In this document: piece by piece, positions 27,184 through 30,626 of the stretch | Layout of the letters: each line of letters begins with the position of its first letter | How positions within the stretch are numbered: position 1 is the stretch's first letter | From: Caldilineaceae bacterium | Lineage (GTDB): Bacteria > Chloroflexota > Anaerolineae > Caldilineales > Caldilineaceae | Direction: 5' to 3' | Assembly: GCA_026705565.1 (NCBI GenBank) | Contig: JAPPAJ010000176.1 | Coordinates: 1-42,390 of the forward strand | Length of the DNA stretch: 42,390 nt | Program-made: the position numbers and the translations under genes | The notes under the pieces: model-generated | What the model was told of the DNA's origin: nothing | Seen by the model: the letters and a program-made list of their open reading frames with translations, nothing else | Databases searched by the model: none

Positions 27184-27459
27184 CTAACCCTGGCGGGATT
27201 GTGTCGGAAGCGAGGCGCCGGGCAGGGGGTCGGCCGGCGCGGCCGGGGCATTGGCGTCGATGACCTGATCCATCTCGGCCAAACCCTGGCGGACGACGAA
27301 AAAGGCGGCAACCGGCAGGGAGACGACGGCGAAACCGATGGTGACCCAGGGGAAGGTCTCGGTCAGGACATCAACCAGTCCCCCGATGATCAGGGGCATG
27401 ATCAATGTCACAAGCAGCACCAGGCTCATGCGTCCCACATGGACGCGGGTCTTGGGCAT
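27184..27459 (-). CDS. AtpI-like small membrane protein of the ATP synthase operon
   Basis: A 91-aa protein with two predicted membrane helices (LVLLVTLIMPLIIGGLV and IGFAVVSLPVAAFFVV) and a short basic N-terminus. It matches the AtpI/ATPase-gene1 type found as first gene of F-ATP synthase operons, where it assists c-ring assembly or magnesium supply. The C-terminal tail is Pro/Ala-rich. The ATG at 27459 has AGG six bases upstream. The name rests on size, topology and position more than on sequence identity. Confidence 0.75.
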   Translation of the reverse strand: MPKTRVHVGRMSLVLLVTLIMPLIIGGLVDVLTETFPWVTIGFAVVSLPVAAFFVVRQGLAEMDQVIDANAPAAPADPLPGASLPTQSRQG

Positions 27460-27542
27460 GCGACCTGTCGTTCGACCTTGTGTGTTGTGCAGATCCGCCA
27501 AGCGCAGGACAGAGCGCGGTACGCCGCGCCTAAATCGCCGGG

Positions 27543-27572
27543 AGTGTATCACCGGCCGATCGCGGTCGCCAA
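27543..27572 (-). promoter_or_regulatory. Candidate promoter of the atp operon
   Basis: Minus strand: -35 TTGGCG (27567-27572), 18-base spacer, -10 TACACT (27543-27548) preceded by TGA, giving an extended -10. It lies between the kinase gene and atpI, with a predicted leader of ~77 bases. Confidence 0.5.
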
Positions 27573-27605
27573 ACTTCGGCACCCGCCGGGAATCAGGGGC
27601 CGGGC

Positions 27606-28619
27606 TCAGGCCTGCGATCCAGACAGGAGCGAAAGGATCAGGCCGGCCAGCAGGAGCAGGAGTGTCAGGGCAAGGGCACCGCGATGGGCTCGCAGGGCGG
27701 CACCCCAGGTTTCGGGCGGCGCGTGGGTGAAGGAGTGCTGAGGACCCGTGGAGGACTCCAGGGCCAGGTGGCTTCGGAATTCCGCCGCGGACACGATGCG
27801 TTCGTCGGGGTGCAGGGCCATCGCCTTGAAGACGGCATTCTCCGTCCGGCGGCTGACCCTGCGGCCGGGGCCGCGCAGTTCGGGCAGGGAGCCGGGGTTG
27901 AGGAACCGGACCTGTGCCGTGGGGGGGACGCGGCCGGACAGCAGGTGGTACAGGGTGGCCCCGAGGCTGTAGATGTCGGCCTTGGCATCGGCCAGGCCCA
28001 CATCCCCGCCCAACTGCTCCAGGGGTGTGTAGGCCAGGGTGCCCCGCCCCTGGGCCACCGTCAGGGTTTGCTGGTCTTCGTGGTCCGCCTGTTGCACCAA
28101 CCCGAAGTCGACCAGTTTGGCCAGACCTTCCGGCGTGACAATGATGTTGGCCGGCTTGATGTCGCGATGCAGGACGGGCGGGGTGCGGCGGTGCAGGTAG
28201 TCCAGTGCATCCAGCAACTGTCCGCACCATTCGAGCACTTGGTGCTCGGGAAGGCCGCGAATACGCTGTTCCTGCGGCCGGCGCAGCAGGCGGTCGCGCA
28301 GATTCAGGCCCGCCACGAAGTCCATGACGAGATAGTCCCGCCCCTCGGTCTCAAACATGTCGCTGACCTTGGGCAGGTTGGGATGATCGAGACTGGCCAG
28401 AAGCCTGGCCTCGCGCTTGAACTGCTCCCGTTCCTGGCGGAGCCGGTCCTCGGTCAGGGCTGGACCGGGGAGGCGATGGATTTCCTTGACGGCGCAGGTG
28501 CGGCCCGGCAGCCTGAGGTCGGAAGCCCGATAGACCGCGCCCATGCCGCCTTGGCCCACCAGTTGCTCGACGCGGTAGCGCCCGCGCAGTTCGGTGCCGG
28601 GGGAAAGAACGGATTGCAT
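27606..28619 (-). CDS. Hanks-type Ser/Thr protein kinase with C-terminal membrane anchor
   Basis: A 337-aa bacterial eukaryotic-like kinase. Seen: glycine loop VGQGGMGAVYRA, ATP Lys45 (CAVKEI), catalytic loop HRDIKPANI with Asp153, Mg-binding DFG at 171, and an activation segment ending GTLAYTPLEQ. The kinase domain spans about residues 15-285. A hydrophobic helix at about 315-334 (LALTLLLLLAGLILSLLSG) anchors it, with only a few residues beyond, so there is no extracellular sensor domain. It is divergent from the FHA-wHTH gene and upstream of the atp operon on the same strand, with 146 bases between. An active kinase is predicted; substrates are inferred from context only. Confidence 0.93.
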   Translation of the reverse strand: MQSVLSPGTELRGRYRVEQLVGQGGMGAVYRASDLRLPGRTCAVKEIHRLPGPALTEDRLRQEREQFKREARLLASLDHPNLPKVSDMFETEGRDYLVMDFVAGLNLRDRLLRRPQEQRIRGLPEHQVLEWCGQLLDALDYLHRRTPPVLHRDIKPANIIVTPEGLAKLVDFGLVQQADHEDQQTLTVAQGRGTLAYTPLEQLGGDVGLADAKADIYSLGATLYHLLSGRVPPTAQVRFLNPGSLPELRGPGRRVSRRTENAVFKAMALHPDERIVSAAEFRSHLALESSTGPQHSFTHAPPETWGAALRAHRGALALTLLLLLAGLILSLLSGSQA

Positions 28620-28694
28620 GGGGCGCGAACGGATGGGCCCGGTTGGTCGGGAGGGTCCCGGCCGGCCTCGGTCGCCGAGACCTCAAACCCTATA

Positions 28695-28700
28695 TATAAT
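28695..28700 (+). promoter_or_regulatory. Perfect -10 hexamer in kinase/FHA intergenic region
   Basis: TATAAT inside the AT-rich stretch TATATATAAT, 32 bases before the GTG of the FHA-wHTH gene. The same stretch read on the minus strand gives TATATA, so it could serve the kinase too. No clear -35. Confidence 0.45.
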
Positions 28701-28732
28701 CTCTTTGCCGACCATTCTACTTTCAAGCAGTC

Positions 28733-29395
28733 GTGAACAATCCGGAAGATCGGGCCAGGCCCCCGTCGCGCGCCATGCTCCTTCAGTGGCTCGGCACGGC
28801 GGCGGGCAGCCGCAAGTGGCCTCTTGAACCCAAGGATTCCATTGTCATCGGGCGCGATGAGGACTGCGACATCGTGCTGGACAATCGCCTGGTCAGCCGG
28901 GCACACGCCGAAATCTTCTGGCGGGACGGCGAGTATTTCATCCGGGATCTGGACAGCAAGAACGGCACCAGTGTCAACGGCCAGCCCTTGGTGTACGAAA
29001 AACGGCTTCAGGATGGCGACGAGGTACAGGTGGCGCTGCGCTACAAACTGGCCTTTGCCGGGGAGGATGCCACTGCCGATTTGGCCTGGGAAGGGGAATT
29101 GCACGGCATCTCGATCAATCCGGAACTGAGGACCGCGTCCATCAATGGTGTGCCCGTGGAACTCAGCCTGCGGCAGTTTCGCCTGCTGCACGTTTTGTGG
29201 CAGGCCGGGGGCAGCGTGGTGACCCGCAGCCAAATCAAACAGGCCGTCTGGCCCGAGGCGGAACCGGACGGTATCAGCCGGCAGTCCATCGACGCCCTGG
29301 TCCGGCGCATGCGGTTGACGCTGCTGGAGCTGGACGCCTCCACGGACCGCATCGTGACGGTCCGCCACCACGGCTATCGTCTTGTTGGGGACTGA
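28733..29395 (+). CDS. FHA-domain winged-helix transcription regulator
   Basis: A 220-aa protein in the order FHA then winged helix. The FHA domain (residues ~20-108) keeps phospho-threonine-binding residues: GR at 40-41, Ser55 and His58 (LVSRAHAE), and NG at 77-78 (DLDSKNGTSVNG). Residues ~125-218 are an OmpR/Trans_reg_C-type wHTH (VELSLRQFRLLHVLWQ, then IDALVRRMRL and a wing VRHHGYRLVG). The order is the reverse of mycobacterial EmbR (wHTH first, FHA last). No receiver domain. The start GTG 28733 lacks a good ribosome-binding site; an in-frame ATG lies at 28775. It overlaps or abuts hemW, implying co-transcription. A phospho-protein-controlled transcription factor is inferred. Confidence 0.9.
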   Translation: MNNPEDRARPPSRAMLLQWLGTAAGSRKWPLEPKDSIVIGRDEDCDIVLDNRLVSRAHAEIFWRDGEYFIRDLDSKNGTSVNGQPLVYEKRLQDGDEVQVALRYKLAFAGEDATADLAWEGELHGISINPELRTASINGVPVELSLRQFRLLHVLWQAGGSVVTRSQIKQAVWPEAEPDGISRQSIDALVRRMRLTLLELDASTDRIVTVRHHGYRLVGD

Positions 29396-29396
29396 G

Positions 29397-30626
29397 TTGG
29401 CATTCGATCCCGTGGCGGCACCGCCGCAGCCCTGGGTTTGGGACGGTCCCGGCGCCGGCGATCTGGGGCTCTATGTCCACATCCCCTTTTGCGCGCGCAA
29501 GTGCGTCTACTGCGACTTCAACACCTATGCGGGCTTGGAGGCCCTCCACGACCGGACGGTGGAATCGCTGTGCAACGAGATTCGGATGCGGGGTCGGCAG
29601 ACCAACCGTCCCGGACTGGTGTCGGTCTTTCTGGGCGGTGGCACTCCCACACTGCTGGCGCCCGACCGGCTCGGGCAGTTGCTCAATGCCATCAAGTCCA
29701 GTTTCAATCTGGCACCGGACTGCGAGATCACCTGCGAGGCCAATCCCAACTCTGCCGACCGGCAGCGCTTCCAGGTCCTGGCGGCGGGCGGAGTCAACCG
29801 GGTTTCGATTGGCGCCCAGAGCTTCGACCCAGCCGAATTGCAGTTGCTGGGACGCTGGCACGATGCCTCCGCCATCGGCAAGGCGGTGACGGAGGCGCGA
29901 CAGGCCGGGATTGACAATGTCAGCCTGGATCTCATCTACGGATTGCCTGGCCAAAGCCCGGAGCGTTTCCAACGCTCCCTGGCGCGTGCACTGGAACTGC
30001 GGCCGGACCATCTCTCCCTGTATGCCCTGACGGTGGAGCGGGGCACGCCTCTGGCCCGCATGGTCCGGGAAGCCGAAGTCCCGGAGCCGGACGACGACGC
30101 GGCGGCGGACATGTATCTCGCAGCCATCGAGGCTTGCCGTACCGCCGGCTTCACCCACTACGAAGTGGCAAACTGGAGTCGCACCCCGGAACGGCATGCC
30201 AGTCGCCACAATCGTCTCTATTGGCGCAACCAGTCGTGGCTGGGCATCGGTCCCGGGGCCCACAGCCATCGCCGTGCCGCACGCGGCCGGACAGGGACCA
30301 GCCTGCGCTGGTGGAACCTGAAGGCCGTCCCGGCCTATGTTCGCTGCTTGCGGGACGGGGCATCCCCGGTCGCGGGCCGTGAGCGGGTGGATCCGAAACT
30401 GTCCCAGGCGGAATCGCTGATGCTCGGCCTGCGGCTGTTGGAGGAAGGGGTGGCGGACGCCACCTTCCGCCGCGAGCACGGCATGGGGCTGTGGGAACGG
30501 TTCGGATCGGTCCTGGAACACCTGATGGACAAGGGCTTGCTGCGCTTCGAATCGGAACGGATTCTGCTGACGCACAGGGGCCTGCTGTTTCACAATAGAG
30601 TGGCCGAGGCGCTGCTTCCCTCCTGA
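29397..30626 (+). CDS. hemW: Radical SAM heme chaperone HemW
   Basis: A 409-aa radical SAM protein, formerly called coproporphyrinogen oxidase-like. The Fe-S motif CARKCVYC uses Cys32, Cys36 and Cys39. FLGGGTPTLL is the SAM-binding GGE-equivalent, and RHNRLYW is the HNxxYW motif that marks HemW rather than HemN. HemW inserts heme into respiratory proteins. The C-terminal winged-helix-like domain (RREHGMGLWERFG) is present. The TTG at 29397, one base after the FHA stop with GGGG upstream, is chosen; another TTG lies at 29382 and would overlap by 14 bases. Confidence 0.93.
   Translation: MAFDPVAAPPQPWVWDGPGAGDLGLYVHIPFCARKCVYCDFNTYAGLEALHDRTVESLCNEIRMRGRQTNRPGLVSVFLGGGTPTLLAPDRLGQLLNAIKSSFNLAPDCEITCEANPNSADRQRFQVLAAGGVNRVSIGAQSFDPAELQLLGRWHDASAIGKAVTEARQAGIDNVSLDLIYGLPGQSPERFQRSLARALELRPDHLSLYALTVERGTPLARMVREAEVPEPDDDAAADMYLAAIEACRTAGFTHYEVANWSRTPERHASRHNRLYWRNQSWLGIGPGAHSHRRAARGRTGTSLRWWNLKAVPAYVRCLRDGASPVAGRERVDPKLSQAESLMLGLRLLEEGVADATFRREHGMGLWERFGSVLEHLMDKGLLRFESERILLTHRGLLFHNRVAEALLPS

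Follow-up and report, generated by a model that had tools for sequence, protein, structure and literature searches.

Organization of the locus

The DNA analysed here, referred to below as the window, is a stretch of 42,390 nucleotides that forms one contig (C380) of the 4.55 Mb genome of a Caldilineaceae bacterium of the class Anaerolineae (Chloroflexota). It carries two back-to-back genes separated by 113 bp. The gene on the minus strand (27606..28619) encodes a tail-anchored Hanks Ser/Thr kinase of 337 residues, and the gene on the plus strand (28733..29395, GTG start) encodes a 220-residue regulator in which an FHA domain is followed by an OmpR/PhoB-type winged helix-turn-helix (wHTH). Both assignments draw on the open reading frames and Pfam matches, supplemented by homologues for the kinase and by an alignment and a structure model for the regulator. 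An earlier note on this DNA had described a kinase with a full catalytic set and a bare C-terminal anchor, divergent from an FHA/OmpR-type fusion protein, and both descriptions hold. Its feature began at 27184 and so took in a separate gene, treated below with the neighbours. Three things escaped it: an invariant threonine in the regulator's linker, a GH3-fold partner protein and another kinase/FHA-wHTH pair elsewhere in this genome.

The kinase matches the Pfam Pkinase family (PF00069) with 129 bits against a cut-off of 31.7 and carries the residues that define a Hanks-type Ser/Thr kinase (catalytic Lys, Glu, HRDxKxxN and DFG): K45, E70, H151-R152-D153, N158 and D171-F172-G173 are all present and are invariant among relatives. 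A 19-residue hydrophobic segment starting at residue 314 (residues 314-332; 27624..27680, minus strand) leaves five residues beyond it, and hydropathy analysis finds such a C-terminal anchor in 39/39 complete homologues. In the activation loop T185 is invariant and T187 nearly so across the homologues, and on the strength of this alignment T185-L-T187 (28059..28067, minus strand) are predicted autophosphorylation sites. Classification as a PknB-type PASTA kinase was rejected, with NF033483 scoring 187 bits against a cut-off of 450 and merely five residues following the transmembrane helix. In one relative (G054) five further kinase genes related to the tail-anchored subfamily are clustered on a single contig (L054/G054:C73).

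The regulator has two Pfam domains and no others, namely FHA (PF00498; 82.5 bits, cut-off 20.7, residues 37-100) and Trans_reg_C (PF00486; 55.9 bits, cut-off 26.2, residues 141-217). The structure model extends these to residues 15-109 (28775..29059) for the FHA domain and 126-217 (29108..29383) for the winged helix, with a predicted local distance difference test score (pLDDT) of 84-96 in most blocks of both domains and a mean of 54 in the linker block. The phosphothreonine-binding residues of the FHA domain (GR...SR-H...NGT-VNG) are present; R41, S55, H58 and N77 are invariant in the alignment, and the ligand-binding residues as a whole are invariant or nearly so among homologues. Conservation of the winged helix equals that of the FHA domain, and R192, R194, R211 and G214 are invariant in it. 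Fold comparison places the FHA domain closest to those of GarA, OdhI and EmbR, and the best PDB matches place the winged helix closest to PhoB and ArlR. No recognisable Shine-Dalgarno sequence precedes the GTG at 28733, and several homologues start at the position corresponding to the in-frame ATG at 28775.

The earlier note had also reported a shared, AT-rich gap of about 110 bases with a TATAAT. The gap (28620..28732) and the hexamer (28695..28700, plus strand) are as described, and the base composition is so only in part: the right 51 bp have 39% GC, the left 62 bp have 79% and the whole has 61%. The hexamer is the probable -10 element of a transcript covering the FHA-wHTH gene and hemW. 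No acceptable -35 was found to match it, and the window holds four TATAAT hexamers against 0.7 expected; the stretch from the hexamer to the GTG is well conserved among four congeners.

Conservation and duplication of the pair

The kinase and the FHA-wHTH protein are, in all likelihood, a cognate pair. The earlier note had staked its reading on the presence of the pair in related genomes, and the pair is found throughout Anaerolineae, with paralogous pairs in other Chloroflexota classes. Each of the 60 relatives searched has a match to the FHA-wHTH protein. Members of the tail-anchored kinase subfamily occur in Anaerolineae, with few exceptions, as single copies and are hardly found in other classes; in a phylum sample, 33 of 301 genomes had one, all but one of these in Anaerolineae. 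By our own tally from gene coordinates, 82 Chloroflexota genomes have the tail-anchored kinase; the FHA-wHTH gene is adjacent to it in 71 and apart from it in seven, and contig ends leave four undecidable. The layout is divergent in all 71 adjacent pairs except that of G050 (L066), where the genes for the GH3-fold protein, kinase, FHA-wHTH protein and HemW are all co-directional; kinase and regulator are likewise co-directional at L169. Identity to the window's proteins outside the genus is about 35-55% across the class, and the synteny is therefore old. Ratios of nonsynonymous to synonymous substitution rates among the four congeners (0.04-0.08 for FHA-wHTH and 0.15-0.22 for the kinase) indicate purifying selection on both genes, which are therefore maintained. 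No full-length match came from plasmid or phage collections, and a mobile origin was rejected. A search of species genomes by short patterns returned full-length relatives from Anaerolineae only, which does not show that the architecture is confined to Chloroflexota.

The window's own genome has two full FHA-wHTH genes, each divergent from one of its three PF00069 kinases above the cut-off. In the second pair (L078, G000:C17, 6730-9841) the partner is a 734-residue kinase with an SH3-like domain, the latter matched below the Pfam cut-off; the next gene after this regulator encodes a MobA-like nucleotidyltransferase. Twenty further FHA-wHTH loci, hand-picked and mostly from other Chloroflexota classes, have an adjacent Hanks kinase in ten cases, divergent in eight of these. 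A beta-propeller (PD40) module occurs in 3/6 of the large-kinase partners scanned. The kinase and regulator trees, built from 54 pairs, mirror each other (Spearman 0.88), and each unites the 13 large-kinase pairs in a single clade (support 0.98 and 0.999), even though four of the 13 belong to Caldilineaceae genomes in which a tail-anchored pair is present too. The species tree alone cannot yield this pattern. Two genomes have two complete GH3-kinase-FHA modules in the same gene order. The pair has thus been kept, has evolved and has been duplicated as a unit across Chloroflexota, and very probably forms one undescribed signalling system.

The linker threonine

Threonine 114 of the regulator (codon 29072..29074) is invariant in 60/60 aligned FHA-wHTH proteins, orthologues and paralogues together, although kinship among them means that these are not 60 independent observations. 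The same column of a separate profile alignment holds threonine in 98/98 aligned residues. In the model, T114 lies just after the last FHA strand and before the winged helix, in a variable linker of low confidence; in most Anaerolineae sequences it stands in the context ATxPL, position +3 being hydrophobic. The threonine was not found in the few FHA proteins without a wHTH that were compared, nor in GarA or OdhI; in all of these the alignment ends before that position. T114 is a candidate phospho-acceptor, and the chance that it acts as one is about even.

A GH3-fold protein as candidate sensor

Outside Caldilineaceae, a GH3-fold protein of about 890-1080 residues adjoins the kinase in 29 of the 38 readable loci. 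Its gene and the kinase gene are arranged tail-to-tail except in G050, and several such loci have the FHA-wHTH gene elsewhere. The window's genome has its GH3 gene on another contig (C81). Among the 60 relatives, with the window's genome counted, the protein is matched at E <= 1e-73 in all 53 that have the kinase subfamily. Six genomes lacking the kinase (one of them, G040, only 70% complete) have no GH3 match or a distant one, as does G047, where the only kinase match is weak; in G030 (74% complete) the GH3 protein is present and the kinase absent. Part of this co-occurrence may come from shared ancestry.

The GH3 protein has a signal peptide, an ectodomain with a Glyco_hydro_3 domain and three transmembrane helices. 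In its model (pLDDT 84.9, predicted template modelling score (pTM) 0.80) a GH3 barrel is accompanied by an alpha/beta and an Ig-like domain, a stalk that is disordered, and C-terminal helices coinciding with the predicted transmembrane segments. An invariant CxxC pair lies in the ectodomain (C504 and C507 in L037; L037:2007-4811 and homologues). Because the tail-anchored kinase has no ectodomain of its own, its input probably arrives through another membrane protein; a receptor role for the GH3 protein is suggested by the same lack, given that the kinases of paralogous pairs often have a built-in ectodomain. That the GH3 protein is a sensor separate from the kinase is a tentative proposal, to which we give somewhat less than an even chance.

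Search for an operator

In many other genomes the kinase promoter is a near-consensus TTGACA-17-(C/G)ATAAT, directed away from the FHA-wHTH gene. The 6-8-mers enriched in 47 intergenic regions are -10 hexamers, TGTCAA (the reversed -35 of the kinase promoter) and TTTCGGCGT. The last of these stands 35-60 nt before the kinase start in L105-L119, L123, L126 and L130, which belong to two families, and at L130 it is kept ahead of the kinase although the kinase does not adjoin the FHA-wHTH gene there. As an operator for FHA-wHTH it was rejected because it occurs mainly in two families and, in one genome where the genes are apart, precedes the kinase and not the FHA-wHTH gene; an extended form is also found inside unrelated sequence. 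A direct repeat, GAACGGAT (28607..28614 and 28627..28634, a 20-bp spacing across the kinase start), was considered as an OmpR-type site and dropped, being imperfect in congeners. The one-step switch at the shared promoter that the earlier note envisaged is consequently not sustained, no operator having been established. Control of the shared intergenic region by the regulator is plausible, at a little less than an even chance.

Proposed mechanism and alternatives

Phosphorylation, docking and DNA binding by the pair are all inferred, and the steps would run as follows. A membrane input would activate the tail-held kinase, which would autophosphorylate on the TxT of its activation loop (T185/T187). 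The FHA domain of the regulator would dock on the phosphothreonine there, in the manner of FHA domains that bind mycobacterial kinases (PMC4601284, PMC4238996), and the docked kinase would phosphorylate T114 in the linker. Phosphorylated T114 could then be bound by the FHA domain of its own or of a second regulator molecule, which would rearrange or dimerise the winged helix and alter its DNA binding. The wHTH would most likely act at the shared promoter, for its own gene and hemW and for the kinase, and at other sites. The best candidate for the source of the input is the GH3-fold protein, encoded alongside in most other Anaerolineae. We consider it likely that the FHA domain reads phosphothreonine on the neighbouring kinase, and the whole, a cognate kinase/FHA-regulator pair with a switch at T114, is in our view the best explanation and reasonably probable.

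Several points weigh against this explanation. The relative orientation of the two domains in the regulator model is not fixed (pTM 0.49), and no family-wide operator motif emerged from the 47 intergenic regions. The kinase and regulator genes are apart in the seven genomes counted above, and the GH3 gene is never beside the kinase in the Caldilineaceae loci read. Several residues that are invariant or nearly so in the class are replaced in the window's genus (K176Q, Y203L, T210A and R213K in the kinase; R196T and G212H in the regulator). T114, finally, might be structural.

A first alternative, which follows the reading of the earlier note, combines docking of the FHA domain on the kinase with wHTH control over the shared promoter, over hemW and also over the atp operon, which the note had named with a perhaps, so that membrane or energy state is coupled to ATP synthase expression. 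As in some relatives, the atp genes do lie just past the kinase and on its strand, and hemW abuts the regulator gene; yet the pair persists where the atp genes are not adjacent, as they are in only a minority of Caldilineaceae genera and in no other family examined, and this reading is very improbable. Divergent regulator-target pairs are common in bacteria and FHA domains can have many partners, so the two proteins might share a promoter region while serving separate pathways, the wHTH regulating the kinase gene, the FHA domain reading other phosphoproteins and the kinase acting on other substrates. The mirrored paralogue trees, the association of different kinase types each with its own FHA-wHTH protein, and the co-directional genes of G050 and L169, which have no divergently shared promoter region, make this improbable too. 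A regulator that serves mainly to inhibit its kinase, with a winged helix that merely sets expression of the pair, would follow the mycobacterial precedents reported for EmbR2 and MupFHA (PMC4601284, PMC4238996), and would suit an FHA fold close to those of GarA, OdhI and EmbR. The invariant winged-helix residues point instead to a DNA-binding function, T114 is conserved as well, and the chance of this explanation is slight.

Two further alternatives are more probable. T114 may cap the FHA sandwich or begin the winged-helix sheet, in which case FHA docking on the kinase would be the only switch. Its place directly after the last FHA strand favours such a structural role, and that a threonine never varies is no proof that it is phosphorylated. 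Counting against this role are the variable, low-confidence linker around T114 and the failure to find the residue in the wHTH-less FHA proteins compared or in GarA and OdhI, for which the alignment stops earlier. We regard a structural T114 as a substantial possibility, below even. The GH3 neighbour, for its part, may be an active wall or glycan hydrolase that merely travels with the kinase, or an enzyme regulated by it. The closest folds are beta-N-acetylglucosaminidases and Bacillus NagZ/YbbD (4gyj, 6k5j), with which it shares the Glyco_hydro_3 domain, and the SD nucleophile motif is kept in most sequences. However, the Asp-x-His acid/base dyad that follows KHFPG in NagZ (compare KHFPGHG...DSH of 4zm6) is absent in 26/26 aligned GH3 sequences, and several also lack the nucleophile Asp. 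The Ig-like domain, stalk and three transmembrane helices are additions to the NagZ/YbbD plan, and the stalk and helices suit a receptor. The gene is convergent with the kinase gene in most loci and is therefore outside the shared promoter. An enzymatic role is possible, at rather less than an even chance.

Comparison with known systems

The closest described counterpart of the pair is PknH-EmbR of Mycobacterium tuberculosis, which also joins a Hanks kinase to a transcription factor with OmpR-type DNA-binding and FHA domains (PMC4601284). The FHA domains of the window's regulator and EmbR share 35% identity and superpose with a root-mean-square deviation of 1.5 A. EmbR is of the SARP type, with an N-terminal DNA-binding domain, a middle BTA domain and a C-terminal FHA domain; the window's regulator, by contrast, has its FHA domain N-terminal and its wHTH C-terminal within 220 residues, lacks BTA and carries the invariant linker threonine. 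Membership of the EmbR/SARP family was rejected on the reversed order and the missing BTA domain. PknH has an extracellular sensor domain (PMC4601284), whereas the window's kinase has a tail anchor only. The analogy to EmbR drawn in the earlier note is thus fair as to mode of working and fails as to identity: the pair works like PknH-EmbR without being EmbR. We infer EmbR-like phosphorylation of the regulator, and docking by its FHA domain, from the gene pairing, the mirrored trees and the conserved ligand residues.

OmpR/PhoB two-component systems offer a second comparison, in that adjacent genes encode a sensor kinase and a wHTH regulator in co-evolving paralogous pairs; PhoB is among the best PDB matches of the C-terminal winged helix. 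The pair differs in having a Ser/Thr instead of a histidine kinase and an FHA domain in the receiver's place, the regulator giving no receiver-domain match in Pfam. One might go further and see a Chloroflexota Ser/Thr counterpart of two-component systems, with T114, read by the FHA domain, in the role of the receiver aspartate, and with a kinase that either has a beta-propeller or SH3 ectodomain or has a tail anchor and takes its signal from a separate GH3 pseudo-hydrolase that acts as receptor of cell-wall glycans; taken as a whole, this picture is doubtful.

GarA and OdhI have the PDB FHA domains closest to the regulator's by both sequence and fold. Both regulate metabolism and, unlike the window's wHTH protein, lack a DNA-binding domain; their phospho-motif is N-terminal, whereas the invariant threonine here follows the FHA domain on its C-terminal side. 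In Mycobacterium ulcerans, PknQ and MupFHA are likewise a kinase with an FHA partner, and the activation loop of the kinase is where the FHA domain engages it (PMC4238996). Two points set them apart from the window's pair: a phosphoserine also takes part in the interaction, and no transcription-factor role is described there for MupFHA.

No paper describing the Chloroflexota pair was found in a search of an open-access library, subscription journals being mostly outside that scope. The substrate specificity of Hanks kinases in bacteria, and their route to transcription, is an open question, for which PknH-EmbR is the best-known direct case involving FHA. The present pair is compact, deeply conserved and repeatedly duplicated, it comes with an evident candidate for the phosphosite and another for a detached sensor, and it belongs to a phylum in which signalling has received little study. 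It offers a test, with few components, of whether Hanks kinases have dedicated response regulators.

Neighbouring genes

The hemW gene (29382..30626, plus strand) abuts or overlaps the regulator gene and, from this neighbourhood, is probably co-transcribed with it; its product scores 274.8 bits with TIGR00539 against a cut-off of 205.4. The earlier note had suggested looking for the pair next to atp or hemW. For hemW this is borne out, the gene being next to the regulator gene in every one of the Caldilineaceae read and in three families besides. The gene at 27184..27459 (minus strand), outside the pair, encodes a small AtpZ/AtpI-like membrane protein, with a Pfam match below threshold (17.3 against 26.6 bits), and belongs to the atp cluster neighbourhood beyond the kinase. 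Of the Caldilineaceae genera whose flanks were read far enough, 5/13 have atp next to the pair; no other family examined does, the usual neighbour of the kinase there being the GH3-fold protein. A link to ATP synthase as a general feature was rejected on this patchiness, which is seen even inside Caldilineaceae; the atp operon adjoins the pair only incidentally, and its control by the regulator is most unlikely. A CpXC-domain protein and a GAF-PAS histidine kinase also recur beside the FHA-wHTH gene, mostly convergent with it, in 7-9 families (L064, L067, L071, L122, L123 and L135).

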